A stretch of 46,186 nt of DNA. It comes from an uncultured Clostridia bacterium (GTDB lineage: Bacteria; Bacillota; Clostridia; Christensenellales; Borkfalkiaceae). Below are positions 8,603-25,736 of this stretch, piece after piece. A program made the translations under genes and the position numbers. Numbering within the stretch: position 1 is the stretch's first letter; every line of letters starts with the position of its first letter. The notes beneath the pieces were generated by a model. The model did not search any database. It worked only from the letters and a program-made list of their open reading frames with translations, and had not been told where the DNA came from. The stretch spans positions 1-46,186 of the forward strand of contig CANRIO010000004.1 of assembly GCA_947630605.1 (NCBI GenBank). The letters run 5' to 3'.

Positions 8603-9496
8603 TTACTCCTTGACGGCACCCGCCGCCGCACTGCCCGTGATCTGCCTCTGGAAGAGGGCAAAGATGAAGATCTGCGGAATGATGGAGATGGTCAGAAGCA
8701 TCAGAAGTTTATCGGGGCCGAAGCCCTGCACCGTGCCCATCGTGGCCTGCAGATTGTAGATCTTCACCATGACGGTCATCATGCTGTCGTCGTTCAAAAC
8801 GAGGTAGGGAAGGAGGAAATCCGACCATGCCGCCGTCATCGTGAAGATGGCGACGACGCCGATGATGGGCCGCGACATCGGGATGACGATGCGGAAGAAG
8901 GTGCGGAGCTTCCCGCATCTGTCCATCTCGGCCGCCTCGAAGAGGGCCTTGGGGAGCGACTCGAAGTAGTTCTTGAACATGATGACATAGTAGGCGTTCG
9001 CGCCGAACATGAACCACAGCGGGACATAGGAATTGATGAGCCCGAAGTTGATGATCTCGCGATAGAGGGGCACGATGGAGAGGAGCGCGGGGATCATGTA
9101 GCTGGCCATGACGAGGCCGAACATGATCTTGTACCCCTTGGGCTTTACGATGGCGAACACATAGGCGAGCAGGCCGTTGAACACGACGGAGCAGAGCACC
9201 GCCCCCACGACCACGATGATGGTGTTGAGGAAGTACCGCCAGAAGTTGAGCATGTTCCACACCTCTACAAGTTTCCCGATGTCGAATACCTTCGGGAAGA
9301 GGTGGTAGGGCGTCGCCGTAAGTTCGCCCGCCTCCTTGAAGGAGGAGATGAACAGCCACAAAATGGGAATGAGCGCAGTCAGGACCGCGACAAAGAGAAC
9401 GAGGAGAATGATGGAATAGACGATGCGGAATCCCGGCTTTTTATAGTCTGCGGCGGTCAGGATGCCGCTCGTTTTACTGCGCAGTCTTCTTTGCAT
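8603..9496 (-). CDS. Carbohydrate ABC transporter permease, MalG type
   Basis: A 297-residue inner-membrane permease with six predicted transmembrane segments, the first at IVYSIILLVLFVAVLTALI. The cytoplasmic EAA loop EAAEMDRCGKLRTFFRIVIP, which docks on the ATPase, lies about 90 residues from the C-terminus. The start at 9496 is chosen because GGAGGAAAT precedes it; the longer ORF to 9634 has a non-permease head. It overlaps the partner permease by 23 bp, so the two are translationally coupled. With the MalF-type partner it would form the channel of an oligosaccharide importer. Confidence 0.92.
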   Translation of the reverse strand: MQRRLRSKTSGILTAADYKKPGFRIVYSIILLVLFVAVLTALIPILWLFISSFKEAGELTATPYHLFPKVFDIGKLVEVWNMLNFWRYFLNTIIVVVGAVLCSVVFNGLLAYVFAIVKPKGYKIMFGLVMASYMIPALLSIVPLYREIINFGLINSYVPLWFMFGANAYYVIMFKNYFESLPKALFEAAEMDRCGKLRTFFRIVIPMSRPIIGVVAIFTMTAAWSDFLLPYLVLNDDSMMTVMVKIYNLQATMGTVQGFGPDKLLMLLTISIIPQIFIFALFQRQITGSAAAGAVKE

Positions 9497-10442
9497 ATTT
9501 CCTCCATTTCCGCGAGACGGTATTCTTCTTCGGCCTCGAGAGGCGCAGATAGACGATCGTGAGCGAGATGATGATGACGGCAAGGATGACGCCCGTCGCC
9601 GCACTCGCACCCGCGTCAAAGGACTGGAAGGCATACTGATAGCTGAGAAGGAGCAGCGAAACGCTCGCCCCGTCCGGGCCGCCCGAGGTCATCACGAGGG
9701 GCTCGTAGAACACCTGAAAGACGGAGATGATCTGAAGGATGAAGAGCATGCGGATCGTCGATCTGATATGGGGAAGGGTGACGTGCCAGATGCGGGCAAG
9801 CGCCCCCGCGCCGTCCATTCTCGCCGCCTCGTATTGCGAATTGTCGATGTTCTGCAGGGCGGAGAGATAGACGAGCACCGTTCCCCCCGCTCCACGCCAC
9901 GTCATCGTGACGACGATGAGCGGGATGGTGAGATCGGGGTCGGACAAGAACTTCGAGACGGGAAGCCCGAGGGCGGTGAGGAGCTGGTTTAAGACCGCGC
10001 CGGGATTGGGGTCGAAGAGATAGGACCACATGATGACGACCGCCATGCCCGAGACGATGGACGGGAAGTAGATGCCGAGGCGGAAGAAGGACTTACAGTG
10101 CACCGCTTCGCTCAGCAAAAGTCCGAGCACGATCGGCACGAGAAAGCCGATGATGATGGACCAGAAGATGTATTTGAAGGTGTTGACGAGCGCCTTCGTG
10201 AACATGGGGTCATGAAAGACTTGCGCATAGTTCGCGAAGTGGTTGAACCCGACGGCCTCGAACCCCTTCGTCTCACTGAACGAGAGGAGCACGTTCTCCG
10301 CGAGCGGCGCCCATACGAAGAAGAGAAAGAGCAAGAGCCCGGGGAGCATCAGAAGCCAGCCGCTCCAATTCCGCTTGAAGAGCCGCTTTGCCTTATAGGT
10401 GAGGGAGGAGCGGTCCACGGGAAGCGCGTTCGCTTTTTTCAT
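9474..10442 (-). CDS. Carbohydrate ABC transporter permease, MalF type
   Basis: A 322-residue permease with a positively charged N-terminus, six hydrophobic segments starting at WLLMLPGLLLFLFFVWAPLA, and the EAA loop EAARMDGAGALARIWHVTLP. It pairs with the downstream MalG-type permease. It begins 12 bp after the solute-binding protein and has a good AAGGGGGA site. The family imports oligosaccharides; the operon context suggests alpha-glucosides. Confidence 0.92.
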   Translation of the reverse strand: MKKANALPVDRSSLTYKAKRLFKRNWSGWLLMLPGLLLFLFFVWAPLAENVLLSFSETKGFEAVGFNHFANYAQVFHDPMFTKALVNTFKYIFWSIIIGFLVPIVLGLLLSEAVHCKSFFRLGIYFPSIVSGMAVVIMWSYLFDPNPGAVLNQLLTALGLPVSKFLSDPDLTIPLIVVTMTWRGAGGTVLVYLSALQNIDNSQYEAARMDGAGALARIWHVTLPHIRSTIRMLFILQIISVFQVFYEPLVMTSGGPDGASVSLLLLSYQYAFQSFDAGASAATGVILAVIIISLTIVYLRLSRPKKNTVSRKWRKYAKKTAQ

Positions 10443-10454
10443 GAGAGATCCCCC

Positions 10455-11873
10455 TTATTTGACTTTATTGAGGAATGTGTTCTGGAATTGGCTGTTCGAC
10501 GTGTCGAGAAGGCTCTTGCAGTTTGCCATCCCCGGATTGGACAGGACGTTCTGGATGGCGTTGTCGAGCAGTTTATACATGTCCTGGCAGTAGTAGGGCT
10601 CCTCCGCACGCTTCATCTGGGGAAGCGTCCCGAAGAAGTCGTTATAATAGTCGAGGTTGACGTTGATATACTTCTCGTCGAGGGCGTTCGCGGCCTCGAG
10701 GTAATCGGCATTCGTCCACGGGCGGATGGTCGGGATGATGGGCATGTTCTTTGCCTGCGCCACCTGATGGCCCTTTTCGATGGCCGCCATCGAGATCGCG
10801 TCCGCCTCGGGGGAGCGGCCGATATATTTGAGGAAGAGAAGCGCGCCCTTTATCTGCTCCTTGGAGGCATAGCTCGGGAAGACAAACGGGGTGCCGCCGT
10901 AGAGCGAATAGCGGCTCGTGCCGTCGCCCGTGGGCATGGGGACGAGGGCGATGTCGTCCTTGTTGAAGTTGAAGTTCGTCACGGGGAGCATGACGCTGTC
11001 GCTCCCGCAAAACGCCATGGCGACGTTCTTCGATCCGAATTTGGCATACCAATCCTGATAGGTGAGCGAGGCGTCGGGATCGATGAGCTTGTCTTGCGCC
11101 ATGCCCTGTATCCATTCGAGGGCCTCGACTGCCGCGGGGTCGTTGAGATTGGCGGTGTACTTGCCGTCTGCGCCCTTCACCTGCATCGCCTCGCAGCCGA
11201 AGTTCCACGCCATGTTGCAGAACTGCCATCCGCCGTTGTTGTTTGCCGAGAGGATGACGAGCCCATAGGTATTGTCAAGACTTTCCGTGACGAGCTCGGA
11301 AACCTCCCTCACCTCTTCGAAGGTGGTTGGATAGAGAGGGTTTCCATCCTCGTCGTAGAGCTTGTAGCTGCCGTCATCGTTCTTGTCGATGACGCCCACA
11401 TAGTTGAGCATTTCGAGGTTCAGAAGCAGTCCCATGCCGTAGCCGTCGCGGGGAACGCCGTAGCATCTGCCGTCCTTGGAGACGGCGTCGCGCATGTCCG
11501 GGTCCATCTTGTCCAGCCAGCCGAGCTCGGTGAGTTCGTCCGTGATGTCGGCGATCCAGCCGTTGTCGATGAGCTTCTGGGGCTCGGTGAAATAGGTCTG
11601 GAAGACGGTGGGGAGCTGCTTCGAAGTCGCCTTTGCGGTGATCGTGTCCGCGCTGTAAACGTAACTGTCCCCCACGATGTCGTACTCGGGATAGTCCGCC
11701 TCGAAGGCCGCCTCCCACTGCCGATACATCTCGACGTCCTGCGTGAGCGTGGGGTCGGGCCACATGCCGATGCTTACCTTTATCTTCCCGTTCCCCTTCC
11801 CGCAGGCGGCAAAGGAGAGAAGCAGCGAGCTTCCCATCAGCACGGACATCGCCGTGCACAGCCATTTTTTCAT
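10455..11873 (-). CDS. Extracellular solute-binding lipoprotein (family 1 type)
   Basis: A 472-residue binding protein of the sugar ABC importer. The N-terminus MKKWLCTAMS is followed by a hydrophobic stretch ending LLLSFAAC, a lipobox with Cys24, so the protein is likely anchored to the outer face of the membrane. The body has the family hallmarks: a KVSIGMWPDP first strand, YSLYGGTPFVFPSYASKEQIKGALLFLKYI, and a C-terminal QFQNTFLNKVK end. The start at 11873 has GGAGGGA upstream; the ORF start at 11927 lacks a signal peptide at its N-terminus. It is first gene of the importer-GH65-pgmB operon. Confidence 0.92.
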   Translation of the reverse strand: MKKWLCTAMSVLMGSSLLLSFAACGKGNGKIKVSIGMWPDPTLTQDVEMYRQWEAAFEADYPEYDIVGDSYVYSADTITAKATSKQLPTVFQTYFTEPQKLIDNGWIADITDELTELGWLDKMDPDMRDAVSKDGRCYGVPRDGYGMGLLLNLEMLNYVGVIDKNDDGSYKLYDEDGNPLYPTTFEEVREVSELVTESLDNTYGLVILSANNNGGWQFCNMAWNFGCEAMQVKGADGKYTANLNDPAAVEALEWIQGMAQDKLIDPDASLTYQDWYAKFGSKNVAMAFCGSDSVMLPVTNFNFNKDDIALVPMPTGDGTSRYSLYGGTPFVFPSYASKEQIKGALLFLKYIGRSPEADAISMAAIEKGHQVAQAKNMPIIPTIRPWTNADYLEAANALDEKYINVNLDYYNDFFGTLPQMKRAEEPYYCQDMYKLLDNAIQNVLSNPGMANCKSLLDTSNSQFQNTFLNKVK

Positions 11874-11912
11874 AATAAGTTCCCTCCTTATCGGATACTT
11901 TTCCTCACTATC

Positions 11913-11952
11913 ATTATAAATTGACAACTAAGTAAGATAAATAGGGTAAAAC
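11913..11952 (-). promoter_or_regulatory. Promoter and putative activator box of the SBP operon
   Basis: Minus-strand -10 TATAAT at 11913-11918, with a poor -35 (TTTATC, 11936-11941). Immediately upstream is GTTTTACCCTAT (11941-11952). The same box occurs at the same distance from the -10 in front of the ATPase operon (25725-25736), so it is a candidate site for the YesN-type activator encoded between them. Confidence 0.55.
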
Positions 11953-11982
11953 AGCAAAAACGTTGAGAAAACTGCCCACCTC

Positions 11983-12011
11983 TTGCAAAACGGCGGGCTA
12001 TGTGGTATAAT
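11983..12011 (+). promoter_or_regulatory. Promoter placing the transcript start at ATG 12018
   Basis: TTGCAA (11983-11988), 17-bp spacer ending TGG, TATAAT (12006-12011), an extended -10. The start is expected at about 12018, which is the first base of the gene, implying a leaderless mRNA. Confidence 0.6.
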
Positions 12012-12017
12012 CGGAGC

Positions 12018-13013
12018 ATGTTCCGAAAGCTCTCCAGAAACATCTATCTGCCCGTCTTTCTGATCGCGCTTTTCCTCATCCTCTTCGTGGATATCTTTTC
12101 CGCCGTCATGATCACAAAGACGCTGCAAAGCACCTTCGTCAGCGTGGGGAAGAGCCGCGTCTCCCGCGCGCTCGATTCCTGCGAGCTCTACATCAATTCC
12201 GTCTCCGCCTCCACCTACAACCTCTCGCAGAGCGGCGTGCTCATCGAAGAGCTCACAAACAGCAGGGATGTTTCGCTTACAAGTCTGCTCGATAATACCT
12301 GCAATTATTCCCTCAACATGAACGGCGTGTGCGCCTATTCGGCGGGCGGGAAGGTCTACACCTCCTCGGGGATCTCCGCCGTCCCCTCCCTCGAAGAACT
12401 GCGCGGGTGCGAGGGCATCTCCGCCTTCCTCGCAGGGGATGCGGACAGCTTCATCTCCTTCCGCACGACCTGCATTGCGGACATCTACGGCAACGTCTCC
12501 TATCCCGATAAAATGGGCGTCATCACCTGCTGCCAAAGGGTGCGCGGCGAAAAGGGCGAGACGGTGGGCTATCTCTTTGCCGATGTCCTTCCCTCCAACC
12601 TCTACGACCTCTTCCTCGAGCGGGAACAGCTCGACGGGGCGTGGGCGTTCATCACCTTCGGGGAGGAATATTTCGACTATGGCGGAAATGCGGCGCATGA
12701 GGATCTTTTGCGGGGCGGGCACCGGGGCTATTTCAAATACGAGGCCGCCGCGGATGACGATCGCTTCGCCCTCACCGTCTTCGAGAGCACCGCGCCCTAT
12801 GGCCGCCGCCTCGCCGTACTCATCGGGGTGCTCCTCGCCGTCTCCGCCGTTCTCGCCGCCGCAGCGTACTTTGCGGCCATGGGTACCGCGAAGAGCGTCA
12901 CAAAACGTCTCGACCGCCTCGAGGAGAAGATGAGCGCACAGGAGCTTCCCTCCCTTCCTCCCGCGGACATGGGTGCTCCGCCCGCCGTAAAAGAAGAGCA
13001 AAAACACAAATAA
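12018..13013 (+). CDS. Membrane sensor-like protein without a kinase domain
   Basis: A 331-residue protein with an N-terminal membrane segment (VFLIALFLILFVDIFSAVMI), an extracellular domain of about 230 residues, a second membrane segment (LAVLIGVLLAVSAVLAAAAYFAA), and a short charged cytoplasmic tail with a coiled-coil-like KRLDRLEEKM. The topology matches the sensory half of YesM-type kinases, but the kinase is missing. It faces the YesM/YesN genes convergently and the SBP operon divergently, so a role in sensing the same sugar is likely. No ribosome-binding site is seen; the ATG coincides with the predicted transcript start. No named family recognised. Confidence 0.75.
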   Translation: MFRKLSRNIYLPVFLIALFLILFVDIFSAVMITKTLQSTFVSVGKSRVSRALDSCELYINSVSASTYNLSQSGVLIEELTNSRDVSLTSLLDNTCNYSLNMNGVCAYSAGGKVYTSSGISAVPSLEELRGCEGISAFLAGDADSFISFRTTCIADIYGNVSYPDKMGVITCCQRVRGEKGETVGYLFADVLPSNLYDLFLEREQLDGAWAFITFGEEYFDYGGNAAHEDLLRGGHRGYFKYEAAADDDRFALTVFESTAPYGRRLAVLIGVLLAVSAVLAAAAYFAAMGTAKSVTKRLDRLEEKMSAQELPSLPPADMGAPPAVKEEQKHK

Positions 13014-13025
13014 GCAGATAAGGCC

Positions 13026-13066
13026 CATGAAAAAACGGCACCCCGCGGGGGTGCCGTTTTTTCATG
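13026..13066. terminator. Bidirectional terminator
   Basis: A near-perfect palindrome with AAAAAACGGCACCCC on one side and GGGGTGCCGTTTTTT on the other, between convergent genes ending at 13013 and 13071. It would stop transcription from both sides. Confidence 0.9.
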
Positions 13067-13070
13067 GAGA

Positions 13071-14753
13071 TCATTGCTTTTTCAAACGTGCCCGTACCAA
13101 AGTCCCCTTCCCCTTTTCGGAGGAGACTTCGAGGCCGTAGCCGTCGCCGTATTGGAGATGGATGCGCTCGTTGACGTTCTTGAGGCCGTAGCCGCCCTCC
13201 ACGCCCGCGGGCCGCGCAAGGATGTCCCCGGGGACGTCGAAGCCGCTCCCGTCGTCCTCCACTTCGAAGAGGATGTCCTCCCCCTCGCTGAAGGCGCGGA
13301 TAAAGAGGTTCCCGCTCCCGCTGTCGAAGGCGTATTTGAGGCTGTTCTCGATGATGGGCTGCAGGATGAGCTTTAAGGTCATTTCGGAGGCGATCGCCTC
13401 CTCCATGTCGATGTGCACCGTGAACCTGCCCGGGTGGCGGATGGCGTCGATCTCGAGGTAGCTTTTGACCATCTCGATCTCATCGGACACCTTGACGAAC
13501 TTGTCGCCGCCGTGCAAAAATAGGCGGAAAAAGCGGGCGAGGTTCATCACGAGCCTGTCGATCTCGGACTGCTTCTTGATGCGTGCCATCCATGAGATGG
13601 CGTCGAGGGTGTTGTAGAGGAAGTGCGGGTTGATCTGCATCTGCAGGCTCTCGAGCTCCAACTTTCTCTGGAGCTGCATGTCCTCGCGGTTCTTCTCCAC
13701 GAGGTCGTAGATCCTGTCCATCATGTCGTCGTATGTGCGTTCGAGCTGGACGAGCTCATCGCCCGCAGGGAGGACGGAGGCGTGGCTCTTTGTCGGTTCC
13801 GCCGTCGCGCTGATGCTCTCGCTGAGCAGTTTCATGGGCCGTGAGAGCTTGTTCGCCCTGATTATGGCGAGGATGACGGAGACAACGAGCATCGCAAAGG
13901 AGACGCAGAGGACCACGGCGAGCGTCGTGTCCATTTCGCCGAAGTAGTAGTTATAATCGAGCACGCTGACGATGCAACTGTCGAAGCCGTAGCGGGAATT
14001 GAGGGTCTCCGCCTTCCCCGTAACGACGATGCTCTTCACGCCGTCGAGCGTCTTTGTCTTGTATGCGGGGGAGGCGGCGGGATCGTAGACGTCGCTGTAG
14101 ACGATGACCTTTCCGACGAGCGTCTCGTCGATGTGCGAGACGATGTAGCCGTCCGACCGCATGATGAAGGAATACCCCTCCCCGCCCGAGACGGGGTTGC
14201 ACATCTCGCGGATCTTCGCTTCGGACATATAGAAGAGCATGACGCCCTCGAAGCCGTTCACGATGCCGCTCGAATAGAGCCCGAGGATGAGGCTTTTTCC
14301 CGCATTCCCCACATAGAAGAGGTTGTTTTTGTGCGCTTCGAGGACTGCATAGCTCTCCGGGATGTAGGCGGCGCTCCCATGCAGGGAGAAGCGGTCCTCC
14401 CCGAGGAGAAATTCCACGTCGTCGAAGTATTCGGGATCGACGCCCACCCGCCGCATGAGGGCATTGAAGCTCTCCTCCCGCTCCCCTCTTTCCGCCCCCT
14501 CGTCCGCGACCGTGAGCAAAAGTTCGACATTCCCGCTCCCCGCGATGCGCCCATAGAGGTAGGCGCTCTCGTTGATGACGTCCGTGACGGCGAGATCGAG
14601 CTCCTCCTGCATGGAGAAGGAATTCCGGCGGATATAGCCGTTCATCGAGATGCGGAAGCCGACGTAAAACACCGCGATCAGCACGGAGAATACTGCGGTC
14701 AGGATGCTCACGAAGGAGAGGATGAACTTGGTGGAGATGTGCTTGAGCTTCAT
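13071..14753 (-). CDS. YesM-type sensor histidine kinase
   Basis: A 560-residue membrane kinase. After a membrane segment near residue 20 comes an extracellular Cache-like domain (about 35-275), a second membrane segment, a HAMP-like linker (RANKLSRPMKLLSESI), then a His_kinase domain of the LytS/YesM class. The phosphoacceptor lies in INPHFLYNTLDAISW (His about 377), the N box is LILQPIIENSLKYAF, and the G boxes are VEDDGSGF and GYGLKNVNERI. Start ATG 14753 overlaps the response regulator stop by 4 bp. YesM/YesN pairs usually sense extracellular saccharides and control nearby polysaccharide genes, which fits here. Confidence 0.92.
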   Translation of the reverse strand: MKLKHISTKFILSFVSILTAVFSVLIAVFYVGFRISMNGYIRRNSFSMQEELDLAVTDVINESAYLYGRIAGSGNVELLLTVADEGAERGEREESFNALMRRVGVDPEYFDDVEFLLGEDRFSLHGSAAYIPESYAVLEAHKNNLFYVGNAGKSLILGLYSSGIVNGFEGVMLFYMSEAKIREMCNPVSGGEGYSFIMRSDGYIVSHIDETLVGKVIVYSDVYDPAASPAYKTKTLDGVKSIVVTGKAETLNSRYGFDSCIVSVLDYNYYFGEMDTTLAVVLCVSFAMLVVSVILAIIRANKLSRPMKLLSESISATAEPTKSHASVLPAGDELVQLERTYDDMMDRIYDLVEKNREDMQLQRKLELESLQMQINPHFLYNTLDAISWMARIKKQSEIDRLVMNLARFFRLFLHGGDKFVKVSDEIEMVKSYLEIDAIRHPGRFTVHIDMEEAIASEMTLKLILQPIIENSLKYAFDSGSGNLFIRAFSEGEDILFEVEDDGSGFDVPGDILARPAGVEGGYGLKNVNERIHLQYGDGYGLEVSSEKGKGTLVRARLKKQ

Positions 14754-15925
14754 TGCATTTTCTTTTCGAGCCATTCGCTCGCCGTACAGCCGAGAAAGTC
14801 TTTGAATACTTGACCAAAGTATTTGACGTCGTTATACCCGACGGCATAGGCGATCTCGCCGATGCGCAGATCCCCGAGAAGGAGGAGCTCCTGCGCCTTC
14901 ATCATCCTGTATTCGGTGAGGCACTCGTTGAAGGTCTTGCCGAGCTCTGCCTTGAACTCGTGCATGAGGTGGCTCTCGGAGGTGAAGAGCATTTCGGCGA
15001 CCGACTTCACCGAGAGCTTTTTCGCATAGTCGCGTTCGATGACGGTGAGGGCGTCGCGGACCACCTTTTTGAGGCGCCCGTTCCCGCTCTCCGTCACCAC
15101 ACAGTTGATGGCCGTATAGAGGGTGTTCTTGCTCAGCTCCTTTGCGGCACGGTATGCCCCGCGGATGTCTCCCCCGATGGAGACGGCGGCGACGGGGAAG
15201 CGTGCATCGGTGCGCCTGAGCGTCTTTTCGAGCAATTTTTCGATTTCCCGCTGTGCGATGCCGAGGGGTGCGGAGGTGAGCATCACCGCCCTGTCGGGGA
15301 ACACTTCGAAGGCATTCGTAAAGCCTGCGAGCGCCCTTTCCGCGTCTGCGAGGAAGGTGGAGATATAGGGGTCGCCCGTGTAGATATAGAGGAGGGTGCC
15401 CTCTTCGGGAAGTTCGACGCCGAGGAGGGAGAGCTGTTCCATGGAGGCCGAGAGGCTCTCCTCCCCCGAGAGGAGCTTTTCGAACTGCTGTCTTCTCACA
15501 ATGGGGAGATTGCTGATGAACTGTCCGAGCATGCGGCTATCCCTGCGCTTTTCGTGCAGTTTTGCCATGACTTCGCTCACGCGGTGCAGAAGTTCTTCGC
15601 TCTCGATGGGCTTCAGAAGAAAGCCCGCGACTCCGCTGTCGAGTGCGCGCCTTGCGTTTTCAAAGTCCTTATACCCGCTGTAGACGATGACGGCGAGGTC
15701 CGCCCCTTCGTCGAAGAGCGTCTTTGCCATCTGCAATCCGTCCATGACGGGCATGCGGACGTCGGCGATGATGAGGTCGGGACGAAGGCTCCTTGCGAGC
15801 CTCAACCCCTCCTCGCCGTTTTCCGCCACGGCGGCGACTTCGATGCCGATCGACTGCCAATCGATGGCGACCCGAAGGCCCTCCCTCACGAGATAGTCAT
15901 CGTCCACGATCAACAATTTATCCAT
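14750..15925 (-). CDS. YesN-type response regulator with AraC-family DNA-binding domain
   Basis: A 391-residue regulator: receiver domain (1-125) with acidic pocket VDDD, phosphoacceptor Asp55 in LIIADVRMPVMDG and the conserved Lys in FLLKPIE; a middle linker region; and a C-terminal pair of AraC helix-turn-helix motifs ending AYAVGYNDVKYFGQVFKDFLG. Such proteins usually bind direct half-sites near -35 and recruit RNA polymerase. It is the best candidate to act at the shared GTTTTACCCYAT boxes of the two sugar operons. A good promoter lies at 15943-15971. Confidence 0.92.
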   Translation of the reverse strand: MDKLLIVDDDYLVREGLRVAIDWQSIGIEVAAVAENGEEGLRLARSLRPDLIIADVRMPVMDGLQMAKTLFDEGADLAVIVYSGYKDFENARRALDSGVAGFLLKPIESEELLHRVSEVMAKLHEKRRDSRMLGQFISNLPIVRRQQFEKLLSGEESLSASMEQLSLLGVELPEEGTLLYIYTGDPYISTFLADAERALAGFTNAFEVFPDRAVMLTSAPLGIAQREIEKLLEKTLRRTDARFPVAAVSIGGDIRGAYRAAKELSKNTLYTAINCVVTESGNGRLKKVVRDALTVIERDYAKKLSVKSVAEMLFTSESHLMHEFKAELGKTFNECLTEYRMMKAQELLLLGDLRIGEIAYAVGYNDVKYFGQVFKDFLGCTASEWLEKKMQ

Positions 15926-16054: not shown

Positions 16055-19000
16055 TCAGTGTCTCTTCTTCCTGACGACGACAATGATGACGGCGATGAGG
16101 ACAACGCCCGCGAGCACACCGATGACGATGCCGACGATCGCGCCCGTCGAAAGGCCGCCGTTGCCGCCCTCTGTGGTGCCGGGGGTGGTGCCGCCGCCCT
16201 GGGTGCCGCCGCCTTGGGTTCCGCCGCCTTGGGTGCCGCCGCCCTGCTGTGCGGAGACGGTGATCTGGATGGTATCCGACGCCTCGTTGCCCTTCACGTC
16301 GCGCGCGGTGACGGTGACGGTGTAGACGCCCTCCGCCGCCGTAAACTTGCCCTCGGTGAGGGTGACCGCTTCGCCGTCCTTGGTGACAGAGACGGTCACT
16401 TCCAGCTCTTCCGCCGAGGCAACGTCGTCCGTTGCGGTGTAGGCGACGGTGATCTCGTCGCCCGCCGTTGCGGTCGTCGGAGTGGTGATGTGCACTTCGG
16501 GTTTCACGGTGTCGAGATAGGTCGGAAGCGTTTCCACTGCTTGGGCATAGCCCTCTGCAACGGCGGGGGAAGCAGTGTACTTCATGAGCTTCATGCTGTT
16601 GATCTTGAAGGGACCCGTACCCGTGCCGCCGGTGTGGATGTGGAAGTTGCTCATTTCGATGTCGCTTTTTTCAAGGTCGATATACACCGTCCTGGCCTCG
16701 TCTGCGACAAATCCCGTGTCGGCAAGAAGGGTGCCGTCCGTGAGGTAGAGATAACCCTCCGTATCGTGAATGCCGAGGCCGCCCGCATAACGGGTCCCGT
16801 TCGTGAATTGGAATCTCAAGTCCGCAAGGCTGGTCCCTGTGGGAACGACGAACTCGATGGCGAGCACATCGTAGGTCTCGGTGAGCTCATCGATCCCCTT
16901 CATTTCGCAGACATATTGATATCCGTCCGACGTCGGCTGGAAGTCGAGGGTATAGTCGGCGTCGCCTGTCTCGGTCTTCAGAGTGTAGGCATTCTCTGCG
17001 TCGGGAACTACTTGTGCGGAAGCGCGCACAAGATCGACGAGCTTCATGCTGTTGATCTTGAAGGAACCCGTGCCCGTGCCGTTCGTGTGGATGTGGAAGT
17101 TGCCGAGCTCAATGTCGCTCTTTTCAAGGTCGATATACACCGTCTTTGCCTGTCCTGCGACAAAGCCCGCATCGGCAAGAAGGGTGCCGTCCGTGAGGTA
17201 GAGGTAGCCGTCTGCGTCATGGTCACCGAGGCCGCCCGCCCAACGCATTCCGTTTTTGCATTCGAAGCGAATACCCGAAAGATCTGTCCCTTCGGCGATC
17301 TCGAACTCCACGGCAAGGGCGTTATAGAAGTCGGGCGTACCGTCGAGGCCCATGACCTGACATGCATATTGATATCCGTCATCGGTCGCTTGGAAGTCGA
17401 AGGTGAAGGGCTCATCGCCCGCCTCGCTCATGACCGTCTTCACGCAATCGGTGAGCACCATGTCCGCTTCGTCCACGAAGAAGATGGTGTCGATATAGAG
17501 CTTGCCCGTGCCGCCGAGGCGAATGTTCATGCCGCAGTAGCCCGCCTCGGAGACCGCAAAGCCGCTCTCCTCGATGTCGACGACGATATAGTACCAATCG
17601 CCGTCACGGTAGGGGTTGCTCTCGTCAAGGAGCGGGGTCGCAAGGCCGTAGGCGACCTTGAGATCGTGCGACCAAATGTCGTCCGTATACGCATCATCGG
17701 GATCGCCAAGCCCAAAACGGAAGCCGGTAAGATCTGCGCCGTCCTCTGCTCTCATCTTGAACACGACGTATTTGCCGTTCACGACGCTCTTGGACTTGAA
17801 CTTGAAGTTGATATTACCGTCCGCTACGAGAGTGGTCGCGTCGAAGACGAGGCAGCCGTCCTTCACTTCGACGAGATTTCCGTTGTCGTAGGAGAGCCTG
17901 TAGTCGAGGCCCGCATCCGCAAGTCCTTCCACTGCGATCATATCATCATAGACGCCCGTAAAGCCCTTCTGCGCGAAGGAGAAGTCGTCGAGGACTTCGG
18001 CGCTTTCCGCATCGATGACAGGGACGACCGTCTCGGGGGCACGCTGGACGGCGTTCGTGAGGTAGATGCGCGTTACGGTGACGCCGTTTGCATCGCTTCC
18101 GTCATAGGAGAACTTGAAGCCCTTCTCGGTGCCATTGAGTGCGACGGAATATCCGTCGTAGGCTTCGGGGGTGCCCCAAGTCGTGCCGTCCGTCGTCGTG
18201 GCGACTTTGAGGTGCGCGGTGTCGCCCTCCGTTTCGATGATGGCATAGTCGTAATTGCCGACGGCCGTCGTTTTCACCACAGAGAAGCTGCCGCCTTCGG
18301 TGAGTTTGACGGCGCGCTTGACGATATGGCCCCCGGCGGATTCCGCCCACCATGTACCCGCATCTGCGAGTTTGGCGGTCGCAGCCACATCGTCTCCGCC
18401 CCGGAAATCGTTGATGACCGTCTGATTGTAGGTGACGGAGGCGATATCGATGACGCCCGCGGCACCTTCCGCCGCAAAGAGATGAATCCCCTGGATGATC
18501 CCGTCCTTGAACTGCGTTTGCGTCGTCGGATATACTTCGTCGTCCTCATAGCTCGTCGCAAAGCCGATCTCGAAGTTTTGCCACTCGGCGGTGATCTGTG
18601 CGGGAAGAGATTCGTTGTCCGCCGTCTTGAGCTCGCTCATCGACTTGATAAGGACGGCCGCCTCCTGATTCGTCGAGTCGCGCACGCCGAATTTCAGGTC
18701 AGAGAGGTTGACGTTCCCGTTGGGCGCACGCATTTTGAATGTGAGCTTCCCGCTCTTATTCATCTCCGTAAAACTGCCCGAGCCTTGCTTATAGATGGCA
18801 CTTACGGTCGATGCGGCACTCCCCGCGGTGTACTCGACGTGCAGATAGGGCTTTTCGCCGAGATCTACATGATCCCCTTCGGCCTTCACCGTGTCGCTGA
18901 TGATGTCTCTGTCGAAGTCCTCAAACACGACGTCCAATTTGCCGTCGAATTCGTGGCCTTCCGTCGCTTGATCCGCGAGCGCCGTCAGCGTGAGACCGGA

Positions 19001-19063
19001 GGTCAACGTCGCTATGAGCGCGGCGGAAAGAGCAGTCAGCAAGATTTTTTGTCTTGTCTTCAT
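16055..19063 (-). CDS. Large surface protein with repeated beta-sandwich domains
   Basis: A 1002-residue secreted protein. It has an N-terminal signal peptide, several beta-rich regions, two clearly duplicated domains of about 150 residues near the middle (both containing YLYLTDGTLLAD, VYIDLEKSDIE, NFHIHT and FKINSMKL), an Ig-like or HYR-like domain (VHITTPTTATAGDEITVAY), a spacer of four QGGGT repeats, and a C-terminal membrane anchor ending VVVRKKRH. There is no LPXTG motif. The duplicated domains resemble carbohydrate-binding modules in size and composition, but no named family is certain. As last gene of the ATPase-hydrolase operon it likely holds the polysaccharide at the cell surface. 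Start 19063 has AAGGGGAG upstream. Confidence 0.8.
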   Translation of the reverse strand: MKTRQKILLTALSAALIATLTSGLTLTALADQATEGHEFDGKLDVVFEDFDRDIISDTVKAEGDHVDLGEKPYLHVEYTAGSAASTVSAIYKQGSGSFTEMNKSGKLTFKMRAPNGNVNLSDLKFGVRDSTNQEAAVLIKSMSELKTADNESLPAQITAEWQNFEIGFATSYEDDEVYPTTQTQFKDGIIQGIHLFAAEGAAGVIDIASVTYNQTVINDFRGGDDVAATAKLADAGTWWAESAGGHIVKRAVKLTEGGSFSVVKTTAVGNYDYAIIETEGDTAHLKVATTTDGTTWGTPEAYDGYSVALNGTEKGFKFSYDGSDANGVTVTRIYLTNAVQRAPETVVPVIDAESAEVLDDFSFAQKGFTGVYDDMIAVEGLADAGLDYRLSYDNGNLVEVKDGCLVFDATTLVADGNINFKFKSKSVVNGKYVVFKMRAEDGADLTGFRFGLGDPDDAYTDDIWSHDLKVAYGLATPLLDESNPYRDGDWYYIVVDIEESGFAVSEAGYCGMNIRLGGTGKLYIDTIFFVDEADMVLTDCVKTVMSEAGDEPFTFDFQATDDGYQYACQVMGLDGTPDFYNALAVEFEIAEGTDLSGIRFECKNGMRWAGGLGDHDADGYLYLTDGTLLADAGFVAGQAKTVYIDLEKSDIELGNFHIHTNGTGTGSFKINSMKLVDLVRASAQVVPDAENAYTLKTETGDADYTLDFQPTSDGYQYVCEMKGIDELTETYDVLAIEFVVPTGTSLADLRFQFTNGTRYAGGLGIHDTEGYLYLTDGTLLADTGFVADEARTVYIDLEKSDIEMSNFHIHTGGTGTGPFKINSMKLMKYTASPAVAEGYAQAVETLPTYLDTVKPEVHITTPTTATAGDEITVAYTATDDVASAEELEVTVSVTKDGEAVTLTEGKFTAAEGVYTVTVTARDVKGNEASDTIQITVSAQQGGGTQGGGTQGGGTQGGGTTPGTTEGGNGGLSTGAIVGIVIGVLAGVVLIAVIIVVVRKKRH

Positions 19064-19094: not shown

Positions 19095-21707
19095 TTATTC
19101 GCCATAGACGTACAGTTCGGAGAGCTGTGCGCCGTAGCGAGAAGAACTGTTGGATGCCCATACGAGCTTGACATAACGCGCCTCGGTGGGAGAGGAAAGT
19201 TTGATCGCGTTCACGTTGCCCGTCATGGGGTCGAAGGTGTAGTCCTTGGCGGCAACGAGCGTCGTGAAGTTTCCCCCGTCTGTACTCACGAGAATGGCAA
19301 TGTTCTGGACGCGCGCCTCCCAGGTGAGGAGGGGCGGCAAGTGCATGACGATGTCCGTTATCTGATAGACGCCGCCGAGATCGACCGTGAAGGTCGCCCC
19401 GTTGCAGTCCTTTGCCGAGGTCTCCCAATAGGTATTCTCGTTCCCGTCGACGAGGTTGTTGGCGCCGTAGACGTCGAAATGCGTCGTCGAATCGAGGACG
19501 GGCTTTGTCGTGGAGAGAGAGCACGGGAAGATCTTGATGTCTGCCAATTCGAGCGTCTTCTGCCCCGTCATGCCGTCCACGCGGAAGAGGCGGAGCTGGA
19601 GAGCGCTGCTCTCGAGGGTGGCGGAAAGTTTGACGTCGAAGTAGTTCCCCGTCGCGGGGCTCGCCGCATAGCGCACGGAACTTTGCGTGCGTGCGAAGTT
19701 GCCGCCCATCTCCTTGCGGTTGAAGATGCTCACGTCGAAGTCATACACATACGCGCTGTCCTCGGGGAGATACACCCTTATGACGCTCACACTGCCCGCG
19801 GGGAGCTTTTCGCCGAATTCGAGGGTGAGGGCGACGAACTCGTCCTTCTCCCCCGTCCAGCTCTTCGCCTTGAAGAGGGTGTTCCTTTCCCCGTCGAAAA
19901 GATTGGAGGCGGGAGAGGCCGCGTCCACAAATTCGCCGCTGCCGTCGTCGTACGCGGCATCCTTCGTCGTGCCCGCACCGTGGGTGACCAAGGCGCTGAC
20001 CTCCGCCATGTCCTTTCCCCTGCCCATGTAAGTCTCGGGCACGTTGAGAATGGCGAATTCGGGCACTTCCAGCCCCTTCTGTTCGGGGGAAGGTTTCAAC
20101 GACTTCTGCGCGGCGTCGCCCTCTTTGAGCGCAAGCTTATAGGGAAGTTTCACGCTCGCGCCCGACACTTCGTAGTCGGCGCCCTGCACCTTGATATTGC
20201 TCACATAGGAGTTCGTTTTGACCTTGAGCTTATCGGCATTGTCCGCCGCCTGCCCCTCGATCTCCACGCCCCTCACGGTGACGTTCTTCACGCTGCTCTT
20301 CGCGCTCTCGCCGCTGATGCGGCAGACGATGCTGTCCGCCATCTCCAAAACTTTGATATTCTCGAAGCGGACGCCGTCGATGGAGCCGCGCTCCTCCGCC
20401 TTCGTCCAATTGGCATTGTAGGCGATGGTGATATCGATGAGGTAGTCCTCGAGGCCGTCCAGCTGGTTGTCGCCGAGCATGCGCGCGTCCTCGATGGTGA
20501 TGTTGTCATAGGCGACGTTCCTGATCTCGGCGTCGTCGCAGTTGTGGATGGACATGGCCGCCTTGTGATAGTTGTGAAGGACGGTGATGTTCTTGAAGGT
20601 GATGCCCTCCATCTTCGCGCCGTTGGTCTCATAGCCGACCTCCATGCTCTGTGCGAGGTCCGTCCAGACGACGACGTTGTCGAAGGTGACATTCTCGGTA
20701 TCTCCGCGGTCGGTGTTCTTGACGACGAGGGAATCGTCGAAGGTGCGCACGAATCCGCCCGTCACGGTCACATCCTTACAGGACTGCACGGAGATGCCGT
20801 CGCCGTTGCCGCGCGCGGTGATGATCTTGAGGTTGTCGATTTTCACCCCTTCGCTGTGATAGAGGGTGACCGCCCAGCCCGCGGGGTCTAAAAGAGCGAT
20901 GCCTTCGATCTTGACATTCTTGCAGAAGCGCAGCTCGATGGGCAGGGTGTATTCGGATTCCGAACGGCGGTCGTAGATCTCCCCGCTCATGATCCCCCTT
21001 CCCCGGATGGTGAGGTTCTCGAGGCCCTCCGCACGCACCTGTCCGTAGACATAGGCCCCGCCCGCGAGGTAGAGCGTCTCGTTGCTCTTCAAGGGGATCG
21101 CGCCCGCAGAGTACACCCCCGGTCCGATGTAGACGGTGTTTTCGGGGACGTTATCCGCGGTGATGGGGTCCTCTTCAATGGGATTTGCGAAGATGTGCAG
21201 GGCGTTGTCCGCCGCATCCTTCGCGCTCCCGTCGTTGTATTCCAATGTGTAATTTGCGCAATATTTGAGATCGAATTCCACGGTGTTTCCGTCGACCTTC
21301 GTCTCCACACCATAGGAGAGCGGGCGGACGACGACGTCCGAAAGCGCCGTTGCCCCTTGGACCTCCACGCGCATGTGCACCTTCCCCTCGAAGTCGAAGA
21401 GGACGACCTGCCCCTCGTCCTGCGAATAGGAGAAGGAGAACTGCCTATTATGGTTGACACGGGTATCGTAGACGAAGAGTTCCTCGTCCTCGACGAAGGC
21501 CTTGAGACGGGAAGAACTTTCGAGAAGATTGGGGCCCTCATAGACGTTGAGCTTGGTCTCCGTCACCGTCCTGTCGGGGGTATCCCCGCCGGGCTTTTCC
21601 CCGCCGCCCGTGGAGGGACCCTTCCCCCCGCCGCATGCGGCAACAAGGGCCGCCGTGCCCATCAGAAGTGCGGTCAAAATGCAAAAGATGGTTGCTTTCC
21701 TTTTCAT
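19095..21707 (-). CDS. Lipoprotein beta-helix glycosidase (GH28-like) with discoidin domain
   Basis: An 870-residue exported lipoprotein: lipobox ALVAAC (Cys25), a low-complexity linker, an N-terminal beta domain (about 50-190), a right-handed parallel beta-helix (about 190-560), and a C-terminal F5/8 type C (discoidin) domain around 720-870, preceded by another beta region. The helix holds NGDGIS (Asp303) and FDDS (Asp324, Asp325). The spacing of 21 and 22 residues matches the three catalytic aspartates of GH28 polygalacturonases. The usual downstream GHG motif is absent; WTDLAQSMEVGYE stands there instead. The glycan is unknown: uronan and alpha-glucan are both possible, and GH28, GH49 and GH87 are all beta-helix families. 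Start 21707 follows AGGAGG. Confidence 0.82.
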   Translation of the reverse strand: MKRKATIFCILTALLMGTAALVAACGGGKGPSTGGGEKPGGDTPDRTVTETKLNVYEGPNLLESSSRLKAFVEDEELFVYDTRVNHNRQFSFSYSQDEGQVVLFDFEGKVHMRVEVQGATALSDVVVRPLSYGVETKVDGNTVEFDLKYCANYTLEYNDGSAKDAADNALHIFANPIEEDPITADNVPENTVYIGPGVYSAGAIPLKSNETLYLAGGAYVYGQVRAEGLENLTIRGRGIMSGEIYDRRSESEYTLPIELRFCKNVKIEGIALLDPAGWAVTLYHSEGVKIDNLKIITARGNGDGISVQSCKDVTVTGGFVRTFDDSLVVKNTDRGDTENVTFDNVVVWTDLAQSMEVGYETNGAKMEGITFKNITVLHNYHKAAMSIHNCDDAEIRNVAYDNITIEDARMLGDNQLDGLEDYLIDITIAYNANWTKAEERGSIDGVRFENIKVLEMADSIVCRISGESAKSSVKNVTVRGVEIEGQAADNADKLKVKTNSYVSNIKVQGADYEVSGASVKLPYKLALKEGDAAQKSLKPSPEQKGLEVPEFAILNVPETYMGRGKDMAEVSALVTHGAGTTKDAAYDDGSGEFVDAASPASNLFDGERNTLFKAKSWTGEKDEFVALTLEFGEKLPAGSVSVIRVYLPEDSAYVYDFDVSIFNRKEMGGNFARTQSSVRYAASPATGNYFDVKLSATLESSALQLRLFRVDGMTGQKTLELADIKIFPCSLSTTKPVLDSTTHFDVYGANNLVDGNENTYWETSAKDCNGATFTVDLGGVYQITDIVMHLPPLLTWEARVQNIAILVSTDGGNFTTLVAAKDYTFDPMTGNVNAIKLSSPTEARYVKLVWASNSSSRYGAQLSELYVYGE

Positions 21708-21719
21708 ACTTCCTCCTTC

Positions 21720-23360
21720 TCAAACGATCTCGACGATGCATGCGTCCCCGAAGGTTGCAAGGTATTCGTCGGTCTGTGCAAAGATGAATTTCGCCCCCGT
21801 CACCTCTTTTGCCTCCTGCAAAAAGGAAAATCCGCGGAGGTAGCTTCGGATGAGGGAGAACTTGCATTCCGCCTCCGTGGGGCGCATCCCCGCGAGCGAA
21901 ACGTTCTTGATCGTCACGTTTGAAACGAAATGGTCGCTCTCAAAGCCCGGCCGCGTATCGCGGCAGCCGCCGACGGTCGCCGAAAAACGGCGGGCGGAGA
22001 GCACTTTGATATTCTCGATGAGGACGCCGTCCACCGTGCCGAGGGCCGTGGGGGAGGTGTGCTGGTCCGACCAGGTCGCGCTATACAGGATGCGCACATC
22101 GATAAGGCCCGTCCCGTCGGCGGGAGCCTTCCCGTCCTCGACGGTGATATCCTTGAAGGTCACGTCCTCGATGGCCGCGTTGTTCGCGTTGTGGATGCTC
22201 ATCACGGCATTGTGCATGGCGTGGAGCACGGTGATGTTTTCGAATGTGATGTGGGAGAAGGGAACGCCCACCGTCTCGTAGCCCAGCTCCATGCTCTGTG
22301 CGAGGTCCGTCCAGATCGTGCAATTTGTGACGGTGATGTCCTCCGTCTCGCCGTGCGTAGAGCGGTTCTCCCAGCGGGGATAGTTCTTGACGACGATGGA
22401 GTCGTCCCAGCTCCGCACAAAGCAGCCGTCCACCCCGATATGCTTGCAGGACTGCAGGGAGATGCCGTCCCCGTTGGAGCGGGAGGTGATGATCTTGATG
22501 TCCTCGATGCGGGAGTTTTCGACAAAGTAGAAGTTCACGCACCAGCCCGCGGGGTCGAGGACGGAAAATTCGCTAAGAAAGATGTCCTTACAGTAGTTGA
22601 ACTCGAGGGGCACCGTGACCGTGCCGTGGTCCGCATCCCGCTCGAAGGTGCTGCCGTCGATGATCCCCCTGCCCGCAATGGCGATGTGGCTGGCGTTGTT
22701 TGCGAGGAATTTCCCCCGCACGACGGCGCCGTCCTCGAGATAGACGAGGGTGTTGCCCGAAAGGTTTATCACATTCCCCGCGCCGATACGGCTGTCGCTT
22801 TGGGCGGTATGAATGCCCGCGGAGAAGATCTCTACATTGGAATAGCCCGAATATTTGGCCGCGCCCTCCTTGTCGTATGCGCTCACGAAGAAGTGGATGG
22901 CGTCGTAGGGGTCGCCGTTGATCTCGAGGACGTATTCCCCCGCACTGCGGAAGGTGAAGGTGAGGGTGTTCTCCTCGATGTCTGCGATGGGCGTGATCTT
23001 TGCGGAGAGGGGGCGCAGAACGGAGGCGTAGTTGATCTTCGTCTCGGGCCTTACAACGATCTGTGCCGTCCCGTCGAGCTCGAAGAGGCAGACGCCGCTC
23101 TCCTTCCTTTTATAATTGTTGGGCGTCCAGCTCTGCGAGGTGTTCACGAGCACCGAATAGGCGGGAAGGGAAGTCTCTCCGACCGAGATCTCCGCTCCCT
23201 CATAGCGGGCGGCTCCCTCGGGGAGCTCCGCGATCCGCACCCTGCTCTCCCCCTCCTCCGTCTTGGGAGGATCCTCGTCGGGTGCGTTGGAGGTGCCGCA
23301 CCCGACAAGGACCAAAAGACAGGATAGGATGAGCGATAAAGCTAACAATAACTTCTTCAT
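21720..23360 (-). CDS. Lipoprotein beta-helix glycosidase (GH28-like), shorter paralogue
   Basis: A 546-residue lipoprotein (lipobox VLVGC, Cys21) related over its length to the 870-residue neighbour but without the discoidin domain. The beta-helix carries NGDGIS (Asp298) and WDDS (Asp319, Asp320) with the same 21/22 spacing, followed by WTDLAQSMELGYE. The two genes are 12 bp apart and are probably ancient tandem duplicates with different fine specificity. The start lies 2 bp after the ATPase stop, and no strong ribosome-binding site is visible, so translation is likely coupled. Confidence 0.82.
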   Translation of the reverse strand: MKKLLLALSLILSCLLVLVGCGTSNAPDEDPPKTEEGESRVRIAELPEGAARYEGAEISVGETSLPAYSVLVNTSQSWTPNNYKRKESGVCLFELDGTAQIVVRPETKINYASVLRPLSAKITPIADIEENTLTFTFRSAGEYVLEINGDPYDAIHFFVSAYDKEGAAKYSGYSNVEIFSAGIHTAQSDSRIGAGNVINLSGNTLVYLEDGAVVRGKFLANNASHIAIAGRGIIDGSTFERDADHGTVTVPLEFNYCKDIFLSEFSVLDPAGWCVNFYFVENSRIEDIKIITSRSNGDGISLQSCKHIGVDGCFVRSWDDSIVVKNYPRWENRSTHGETEDITVTNCTIWTDLAQSMELGYETVGVPFSHITFENITVLHAMHNAVMSIHNANNAAIEDVTFKDITVEDGKAPADGTGLIDVRILYSATWSDQHTSPTALGTVDGVLIENIKVLSARRFSATVGGCRDTRPGFESDHFVSNVTIKNVSLAGMRPTEAECKFSLIRSYLRGFSFLQEAKEVTGAKFIFAQTDEYLATFGDACIVEIV

Positions 23361-23361
23361 A

Positions 23362-25671
23362 TCAGGCGAATTTTATCCCGTGCGCCGCGTCGTAGACGCC
23401 CGCCGTATTCAGGTCTATATCGAAGGAGACGGTCTCCCCCTCCCCCTCATAGGGAAGGACGATCTTCGCGCCGAGGCATTCCGCACGCGCATATTTCTTT
23501 TCCCCGAAATCGTAGCGTTCGAGAATGTTTGCCTTGAAGGTGTCCCCGGGGAGAAGGGCGTCCTCGCCGAAGTGGAGCTCGAGGTCCACGCCGAACAGCT
23601 TCCGATCGCTCGCGCCGAGAAGACGTTTCAGAACATTGAAGGGGCAGCGCATGGAGACATCGCCGCATTCGACGAAGATGTCCATGTCCCGTCTCTCCTC
23701 GGGGGGAAGCGCCTTTCTTTCCTCCTTGGAGAGCTTGCGCTTTCTGAGCTTGACGGCAAGAGCATTTTGCGTCTCGAGGGCGGGCCGCACCACTTCGCCG
23801 TCGCGGGAGATGGAGAGGGTGTGCCAATCCAATTTGATCCCCCCTTCGATGCCGCCCTCTCCCAAGGCGTACAGCCTCTGTGAGCCGACTTCGATGCGGG
23901 TGAGCGTTCCCTCTTTGAGCTGTTCGCTCTCCAAAACTCTTGCGGGATAGGCGTCCCCGCTCTGCACTGCGGTGGCGGGGAAGAGGGCGTCGAATGCGCC
24001 CTCGAGCCCTTGAAGTGCGGGCGGAAGGTCTGCCCCCACGCCGCCGAGGAAGAGTTTGCCCCCTTCGATGGTCACGGGGAGGTCGTTGTAGCGCACAAGG
24101 CGGTCCATGACGCTCACTTCCGTCTCCGCGTCAAAGTAGTGCGCATTCGCAAAATCGATGTTTACCCTGATGATGTCGCCGCTGCGGTGCGGACATACCC
24201 CCGCCGTCTTGAGGATGAATGGATAGGTCCCGCTCTCGTAATTGGCCTTGTTCTGTGTGTCGAAGTCGCAATAGAGGAGGGTCTCGCTCCCGAGCATCTC
24301 GACGCCGAGGACGACGCATTCGATCCCCCCTTCCGTGAGGAACACATCCTCCGGCCGAACGCCGAAGGTCACCTTTTTCCCCAAATATTTGCGCTCGAAT
24401 TTCTTGAGATATTCCGCGGAGAAGTTCAGCCTCTTCCCGCCCGCAAAGGTGACGCTCGCCTCTTTGCCGTCAAGCTCCACGACGGCGTCGAAGAAGTTCA
24501 TGGACGGGGTGCCGATAAAGCCTGCGACGAAGAGATTCTTCGGATAGGTGTAGAGGTCGATGGGCGTGTCGATCTGCTGGACGGTGCCCTTCTTCATGAC
24601 GACGATCCGGTCCCCCATCGTCATCGCCTCCACCTGGTCGTGCGTGACGTAGATGAAGGTCGTCTGCAGGCGGTTGTGCAATTTGGTGATCTCACTGCGC
24701 ATCTGGGTGCGGAGTTTCGCGTCGAGGTTGGAGAGCGGTTCGTCGAGGAGGAAGACCTTGGGGTCCCGCACCATGGCGCGGCCGAGGGCGACCCTCTGCC
24801 GCTGGCCGCCGCTCATGTCCCCCGGCTTGACGCCGAGGTATTCCTTGAGGCCGAGGATGTCCGCGATCTCGACGACGCGCATATACATCTCCTCCCGCTT
24901 GACGCGCGCGGCGTAAATGGGACGGAAGAGATTGTGGAGGAGGGAGATGGGACGCTGCAGATGCTTCTCCTCCCGAAGGCCGACGATGTATTCATGCCGA
25001 AGGGTGAGAAGGTGCAGGGGCTTCAATATAAAATTCTTAAAGGAACGCGGGAAGACTTCCTTGAGGTCCTTGGAGATCTCCGCCTTGTCCTCCTTTGTGA
25101 GCACGATCTTTTTATTCACACGGTAAAGTTTCCGCGTCTCGGCGTTCTTTGCCTTCGCCTCGCTGTATTGGGAATAGAGTTCCTCCCCGCGAAGGGCGAT
25201 CGCATCCAGCTCCGCCTGTGAGAGGGCGTCGGCCTTTTTGTGCATCTTGAGGAGGTACTCTTTTTTCGCGATCTTCCGGAAGCTCTTTGCGGAGCGGATG
25301 GGCGGAAATCTTCCATCGATCCGACTCTTTAGGGCCGCCTTCTGCTCCTTGGTGAGCTTCGCCATCTTGAGTGGGAAAGCCATGTTGTCGGCGACTGTCA
25401 TGTGCGGATAGAGGGCATAGTTCTGGAAGACCATTGCCGTATCGCGGTCCTTGCAATCCACATCGTTGACGACGGCCTCGTCGATCTTGAGTTCCCCCGC
25501 CGTGATCTCCTCGAGCCCCGCGATCATGCGCAGGACGGTGGATTTTCCGCAGCCGGAAGGGCCGACAAAGACGACAAATTCCTTGTCCTCGATGTCCATC
25601 GAAAAATCGTTGACCGCTTTCGTGCCGTTGGGATAGACTTTGTAGATGTTTTTCAGATGAAGACTTGCCAT
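23362..25671 (-). CDS. Oversized MalK-type sugar ABC transporter ATPase
   Basis: A 769-residue ATPase; MalK/MsmK proteins usually have about 370. Walker A GPSGCGKST (37-45), Q-loop MVFQNYALYPHM (about 80), signature MSGGQRQRVALGRA (about 286), Walker B VFLLDEPLSNLD, and H-loop VTHDQ are intact. Between Q-loop and signature lies a Lys/Arg-rich insert of about 150 residues (about 106-261), and after the TOBE-like regulatory region (FGVRPEDVFL) there is an extra tail of about 230 residues. It should energise the 9474/8603 permeases although it is in the other operon. Start: the first codon of the ORF at 25683 is TTG; ATG 25671 has GGGGA at good distance and gives the canonical MASLHLKNIYKVYPNG. 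Confidence 0.9.
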   Translation of the reverse strand: MASLHLKNIYKVYPNGTKAVNDFSMDIEDKEFVVFVGPSGCGKSTVLRMIAGLEEITAGELKIDEAVVNDVDCKDRDTAMVFQNYALYPHMTVADNMAFPLKMAKLTKEQKAALKSRIDGRFPPIRSAKSFRKIAKKEYLLKMHKKADALSQAELDAIALRGEELYSQYSEAKAKNAETRKLYRVNKKIVLTKEDKAEISKDLKEVFPRSFKNFILKPLHLLTLRHEYIVGLREEKHLQRPISLLHNLFRPIYAARVKREEMYMRVVEIADILGLKEYLGVKPGDMSGGQRQRVALGRAMVRDPKVFLLDEPLSNLDAKLRTQMRSEITKLHNRLQTTFIYVTHDQVEAMTMGDRIVVMKKGTVQQIDTPIDLYTYPKNLFVAGFIGTPSMNFFDAVVELDGKEASVTFAGGKRLNFSAEYLKKFERKYLGKKVTFGVRPEDVFLTEGGIECVVLGVEMLGSETLLYCDFDTQNKANYESGTYPFILKTAGVCPHRSGDIIRVNIDFANAHYFDAETEVSVMDRLVRYNDLPVTIEGGKLFLGGVGADLPPALQGLEGAFDALFPATAVQSGDAYPARVLESEQLKEGTLTRIEVGSQRLYALGEGGIEGGIKLDWHTLSISRDGEVVRPALETQNALAVKLRKRKLSKEERKALPPEERRDMDIFVECGDVSMRCPFNVLKRLLGASDRKLFGVDLELHFGEDALLPGDTFKANILERYDFGEKKYARAECLGAKIVLPYEGEGETVSFDIDLNTAGVYDAAHGIKFA

Positions 25672-25696: not shown

Positions 25697-25736
25697 ATTT
25701 TAACAATTTATGAAAAAATTTTCCATGGGGTAAAAC
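25697..25736 (-). promoter_or_regulatory. Promoter and putative activator box of the ATPase operon
   Basis: Minus-strand -10 TAAAAT at 25697-25702, no good -35 (TGGAAA), and GTTTTACCCCAT at 25725-25736. Box and -10 are exactly as far apart as in the SBP promoter (28 bp between matching positions). Confidence 0.5.

Follow-up and report, generated by a model that had tools for sequence, protein, structure and literature searches.

The ATPases of sugar importers differ in how many permeases they serve. MsmX of Bacillus subtilis (PDB 6yir) is a multitask CUT1 ATPase with one regulatory unit that energizes many importers, including those for pectin-derived oligosaccharides (PMC5730181), whereas MalK of Escherichia coli (PDB 2r6g, 9bcr), a protein of about 370 aa with one regulatory unit, is dedicated to one permease pair. 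In the MalK family, the EAA coupling helix of the permease docks in a cleft of the helical subdomain of the ATPase (PMC3150292). MsmX carries R104 in the α3-α4 loop and E110 in α4 of this subdomain, and alanine variants of either residue have reduced function, the R104A/E110A double exchange being cumulative on AraNPQ energization, although neither R104 nor E110 itself lies at the interface with the transmembrane domains (TMD) (PMC7658222). A charged signature consisting of D77, R104, E110, and K154 has been associated with multitask ATPases, yet it is not strict, E. coli MalK has Ala at the R104 position, and structures of complexes are needed to settle what determines the choice of one or many permeases (PMC7658222).

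Here we describe malK-B, a MalK/UgpC/MsmX ATPase gene of about twice the usual size, located in a stretch of 46,186 nucleotides from an uncultured Clostridia bacterium (contig CANRIO010000004.1 of assembly GCA_947630605.1; hereafter the window). Its product combines a conventional nucleotide-binding domain (NBD) with a helical insert in the α3-α4 loop and a long C-terminal tail (Table 1).

The malK-B Gene and Its Cluster

Profile searches place MalK-B firmly within the MalK/UgpC family of CUT1 sugar importer ATPases. The protein passed the UgpC model NF008653 (440.5 bits against a cut-off of 432) and matched ABC_tran and OB_MalK (E 7e-12, above cut-off); TOBE_2 at 20.9 bits was marginally below its 21-bit cut-off, and the MalK equivalog PRK11000 was not reached (385 against 568). 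As the initial annotation had stated, the nucleotide-binding motifs are intact, namely Walker A (GPSGCGKST), the Q-loop (Q83), Walker B (VFLLDE), the D-loop, the H-loop (H344), and a signature reading MSGGQ, in which Met replaces the Leu of LSGGQ. The closest solved relatives are Clo1313_2554 of Clostridium thermocellum (PDB 7x0q), MsmX, and AlgS. Clo1313_2554, a protein of canonical length, comes nearest by sequence as well as by structure, with a TM-score of 0.92 when normalised to its chain. MsmX has the ATPase and the first regulatory domain in common with MalK-B, at a TM-score of 0.87 (normalised to the solved chain), and E. coli MalK the fold and motifs; neither MsmX nor E. coli MalK has an insert. 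Alignments to the solved relatives break at residues ~110 and ~256 and stop at ~522, and in the alignment of MalK relatives canonical members have 0 residues between query positions 109 and 256 and at most 1 after 522. The predicted model of full-length MalK-B has a mean pLDDT of 88.

The same architecture of insert and long tail is found at five further loci (L009-L013) and, by genome search, at three more (L054-L056); L009 and L054 look like one, and some loci may be the same species from two collections, while several are clearly distinct. An assembly artefact, which had been named as a possible source of the extra length, is therefore excluded, because the architecture recurs in separate, independent assemblies.

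Table 1. Features of malK-B and its gene cluster in the window (positions in nucleotides; residues are those of MalK-B).
Feature	Position	Strand	Basis
malK-B, MalK/UgpC/MsmX-type ABC ATPase, 769 aa, with insert and long tail	23362..25671	-	ORF, ATG at 25671
NBD N-terminal half (residues 1-108): Walker A, Q-loop, α3	25348..25671	-	
Insert (residues 109-256), orphan Lys/Arg-rich domain, predicted all-helical, α3-α4 loop of helical subdomain	24904..25347	-	
NBD C-terminal half (residues 257-386): α4, signature MSGGQ, Walker B, D-/H-loops	24514..24903	-	
R1 (residues 387-522), canonical MalK OB/TOBE regulatory unit	24106..24513	-	OB_MalK 7e-12
R2 (residues 523-629), putative degenerate regulatory copy 2	23785..24105	-	hhalign and strand order
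R3 (residues 630-769), putative degenerate regulatory copy 3	23365..23784	-	hhalign and strand order
Candidate sigma-70 promoter TGGAAA-17-TAAAAT, TG ahead of second hexamer, upstream of malK-B	25697..25725	-	consensus match only
GH28 lipoprotein, next gene after malK-B, 1-nt gap	21720..23360	-	
GH28 with F5/8 type C domain	19095..21707	-	
Putative surface protein, 1002 aa, C-terminal anchor, no Pfam match	16055..19063	-	
Response regulator, AraC-type	14750..15925	-	
Histidine kinase	13071..14774	-	
337-aa membrane protein, weak Cache-domain match, divergent from SBP operon	12000..13013	+	
Solute-binding protein (SBP)	10455..11927	-	
PermF, MalF-type permease, ordinary EAA motif EAARMDGAG	9474..10442	-	
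PermG, MalG-type permease, EAA motif EAAEMDRCGK (Arg for Gly), tail GAVKE	8603..9496	-	
GH65 family enzyme	6381..8600	-	
Second GH65 family enzyme	4393..6621	-	
HAD-family hydrolase	3758..4396	-	

malK-B heads an operon that continues with the GH28 lipoprotein, the GH28-F5/8 protein, the 1002-aa protein, the response regulator, and the kinase. This order is kept at L011, L012, and L009 (there as far as the 1002-aa gene, at which the contig stops), and it begins at L010 and L013, on contigs that both end just after malK-B. The statement that the ATPase is encoded with hydrolases rather than permeases is true of this immediate operon and only partly right, because the cluster also includes, 13 kb downstream and on the same strand, the SBP and the two permeases (8603-11927), in a separate transcription unit set off by the plus-strand gene at 12000-13013. 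A minus-strand ORF overlying the latter gene (11928-13028) looks spurious. Promoter-like sites, called by sigma-70 consensus match only, occur in a number near the shuffled expectation. The GH65 family enzyme at 6381..8600 is probably a disaccharide phosphorylase, and from context the HAD-family hydrolase is probably a β-phosphoglucomutase; the importer would take up a pectin- or GH65-related substrate. The 1002-aa protein shows internal repeats, a Gly/Thr/Gln-rich linker, and a C-terminal membrane anchor. Elsewhere in the window, an EcoRI-type adenine methylase (26430-28622, minus strand; PF13651, E 3e-145) adjoins a GmrSD_N/HNH nuclease gene, the two forming a candidate restriction-modification pair.

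A Tail Resembling the Regulatory Unit

The residues following the regulatory domain had been put at about 230; the addition is real, and its length is 247 aa (residues 523-769). Profile comparison indicates that the OB/TOBE regulatory unit of MalK is repeated here in two further, degenerate copies, which would bring the number of units to three. With a canonical regulatory profile built from MalKs that have no tail, hhalign gave a probability of 93% (E 4.7e-7) for R2 and 89% (E 2.6e-6) for R3, and R2 against R3 gave 94% (E 1.1e-7). These comparisons scored 42-49. The highest scores among 100 column-shuffled controls per comparison were 16-24, and neither the ATPase halves nor the insert gave a score above 17. 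A similar strand order is seen three times across R1-R3 in the predicted model. When the tail profile was searched against PDB sequences with E up to 1, the only four matches were all MalK-family regulatory domains, each weak singly (E 0.13-0.79), and in the genome search the profile also matched canonical MalKs at E 4e-4 and 7e-4. The dN/dS values of R2/R3 are 0.18-0.38.

Homologous tails are present in more than 25 insert-free relatives from gut Clostridia and from metagenome-assembled genomes (MAGs) labelled Acholeplasmatales, Anaeroplasmataceae, or Erysipelotrichales, and the tail profile had matches in 24 of 151 family genomes and 8 of 391 class genomes, a few of them being weak hits on MalK-like proteins that have no tail. 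Where neighbours were read, the insert-free, tail-bearing MalKs adjoin MalF/MalG-type permeases and GH13 enzymes or pullulanase-like proteins, and by this context they often appear to be maltodextrin-type MalKs. In four relatives (L034, L036, L037, L038; malK from position 10001 onward) the MalK is 847-1088 aa long, and its tail contains a long charged stretch that is probably a coiled coil, in L036 together with DUF6693/DUF898 segments. A common, lineage-wide occurrence had been named as a finding that would speak against the initial annotation; it applies to the tail and not to the insert, which a single clade carries. No evidence was found for a new sensing function, which the initial annotation had also put forward.

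An Orphan Helical Domain in the α3-α4 Loop

The initial annotation was correct that about 150 Lys/Arg-rich residues are inserted in the helical subdomain. The insert measures 148-150 aa in MalK-B (112-157 aa across the aligned loci), contains 22 Lys and 13 Arg in 150 residues, with a net charge of +17, and is strongly basic in all seven MalK-B proteins (+15 to +21). Residues 103-109 of MalK-B align with MsmX 103-109, and since the insert follows residue 109 of the equivalent loop, it splits the R104/E110 pair. The R104 position itself is occupied by Ala, Thr, or Ser in 7/7 MalK-B proteins, and 13 of the 36 other proteins lack R104 as well. MalK-B departs from the multitask signature by the absence of R104, whereas D77 and K154 are kept and the residue in place of E110 is acidic. 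The insert had further been assigned to the face that touches the permease; its place in the α3-α4 loop of the helical subdomain agrees with this approximately, R104 and E110 being reported to lie off the TMD interface (PMC7658222), and the insert may contact the permease.

Modelled alone with short flanks, the insert is predicted as a domain of about seven helices (pLDDT 86), and in the full-length model, too, it is a confidently predicted helical domain. A search of other MalKs found it at L009-L014 and L054-L056, always in one fixed place. Among 103 genomes of the genus, four carry it; beyond the bacterium's own genome it was found in none of the samples of the family (201 genomes), order (396), and phylum (399), and no second copy was found in the own genome. 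A known domain was rejected as its source, given that Pfam yielded nothing at E values up to 10, with no convincing match among PDB sequences (the best, at E 0.12, is a designed protein) and no fold match in the PDB below E 4. Nor did the profile of the insert match those of the regulatory units, which rejects an origin as a further copy of these. Judged by these searches, the insert is a rare orphan helical domain restricted to one clade.

Other MalKs carry unrelated insertions in the same α3-α4 loop (L015 one of 110 aa, L028 one of 26 aa, L016/L017 one of 10 aa, and L065 a DKNG-rich one), and the middle of the insert (about residues 141-175) is absent in L012 and L013, as would be expected if the loop simply accepts insertions and the expansion is tolerated with no role of its own. 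However, four pairwise comparisons gave dN/dS values of 0.20-0.27 for the insert (0-0.08 for the ATPase halves), and therefore the insert is constrained by purifying selection; together with the conservation of its C-terminal half across the clade and its confident fold, this makes neutral expansion very improbable. The insertions of L015 (665-2884) and L065 share D/K-N-G-type motifs, and L015, L065, and L028 stand outside the insert clade.

Another reading is that the Lys/Arg-rich helices bind acidic phospholipids, anchoring the ATPase at the membrane surface as a general aid to assembly with no part in partner choice. The high positive charge of all seven inserts speaks for such an anchor, as do two short hydrophobic helices (211-215 and 244-248) close to basic stretches. 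Nevertheless, no long, strongly amphipathic helix was found in the insert, the hydrophobic moments of its long helices being low, 18-residue windows that are almost as basic are present in MalK-B outside the insert, and an anchor would leave the restriction to one permease system unexplained. We regard this reading as unlikely.

Large inserts in the helical subdomain of other ABC ATPases, such as the UvrA insertion domains and the ABCF arm, are functional domains between Q-loop and signature that bind partners, in proteins that are not transporter ATPases, and the regulatory domain of E. coli MalK binds MalT and EIIAGlc. By analogy, the insert might recruit the histidine kinase, the response regulator, or a metabolic enzyme of the cluster, coupling the importer to regulation, in keeping with the retention of response regulator and kinase in the operon of L011 and L012 and with the role of MalK regulatory domains as interaction hubs (PMC11466899). 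However, no direct link to such a partner was found, the database searches with the insert offer none, and no relation in sequence or fold to the ABCF arm or UvrA insertion domains was detected; recruitment seems to us about as improbable as the anchor.

Proposed Pairing with PermF and PermG

PermG departs from the motif EAA-X3-G-X9-I-X-LP in that E-A-A and the downstream Pro are kept and the Gly is replaced. This Gly is Arg or Lys in 6/6 PermG orthologs, as opposed to being kept in all 63 other permeases whose motif could be read (3 more rows have a gap at the position). PermG is still a permease of the BPD_transp_1 family, because it matches that model at E 1.9e-13, and it retains the GAVK(E/G) tail of MsmX-type systems; an unusual C-terminal tail was considered and rejected, as the ending KE is also found in ordinary permeases. 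Across the 103 genus genomes, orthologs 92-95% identical to PermG occur in exactly the four that bear the insert, the other permeases listed in that search having at most 33% identity. Two more divergent orthologs (84-86%) are encoded in the genomes of L011 and L012, and no close PermG was found in those of L010, L013, and L014. Were the two traits independent, their joint occurrence in the same 4 of 103 genomes would have a probability of about 2e-7, but the inheritance of one cassette is enough to explain it. Co-occurrence and EAA change thus count as one evolutionary event, because all MalK-B and PermG descend from one cassette, and therefore they do not prove that EAA change and insert compensate each other. 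Nor is simple charge pairing likely, because both changes add positive charge.

In the bacterium's own genome, which is 74% complete, nine BPD_transp_1 matches include two pairs that look like sugar permeases (assigned by similarity to PermF/PermG), on contigs C9 and C4, one of them being the pair of the MalK-B cluster. The C9 pair lies near an insert-free MalK-A, cut by the contig end, and a gene that resembles the L016 GH13 gene; a contig-end piece on C26 with regulatory units and tail may be the rest of the MalK-A gene. Other genomes with MalK-B encode several further sugar permeases.

When a tree was built from the shared core, all seven proteins with the insert grouped together on one long branch with 100/100 support, nested in the tail-bearing MalK group (96/90), and the MAG of L012 also encodes an insert-free, tail-bearing MalK (L025). 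This fits an origin of MalK-B by duplication followed by gain of the insert, and transfer of the cassette as a whole between close relatives is possible. A single event giving rise to insert and tail is rejected by distribution, the tail being widespread where the insert is absent; the two are separate events with different histories. One insert-bearing MalK, L014 (10001-11410), is cut off after query residue ~435, has no GH28 genes nearby, and is probably a decaying remnant.

It can be proposed from these observations that the ancestor of MalK-B was probably the ATPase of a maltodextrin importer in which the regulatory OB/TOBE unit was already triplicated. One copy would have joined a pectin-related cluster of two GH28s, a two-component system, an SBP, two permeases, and two GH65s, and would there have gained a helical domain in the α3-α4 loop of the subdomain whose groove takes the EAA coupling helices. 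The insert may add contact surface beside the coupling helix of PermF/PermG and may hinder pairing with the cell's other sugar importer, presumably served by MalK-A, with the altered EAA motif of PermG as the matching change on the permease side. The initial annotation had suggested altered permease partners, and the co-occurring PermG and its EAA change lend this some support, the contact itself being conjectural. That MalK-B is a dedicated ATPase, as E. coli MalK is, and that its insert contributes to pairing with PermF/PermG, is in our view the most likely reading, and we put it at even chances. The stronger version, in which the orphan loop domain and the non-glycine coupling helix of PermG constitute a private lock that turned a shareable ATPase into an exclusive one, is more tentative and would seem somewhat doubtful at present.

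The triplicated regulatory domain is a second unexplained elaboration, common to many gut Clostridia and their relatives. The MalK-B system speaks to the question of how a sugar-importer ATPase comes to serve one permease or many, and it offers a natural comparison within one cell, in which ordinary permeases go with a MalK that has no insert, and a permease with a replaced EAA glycine goes with a MalK that has one.
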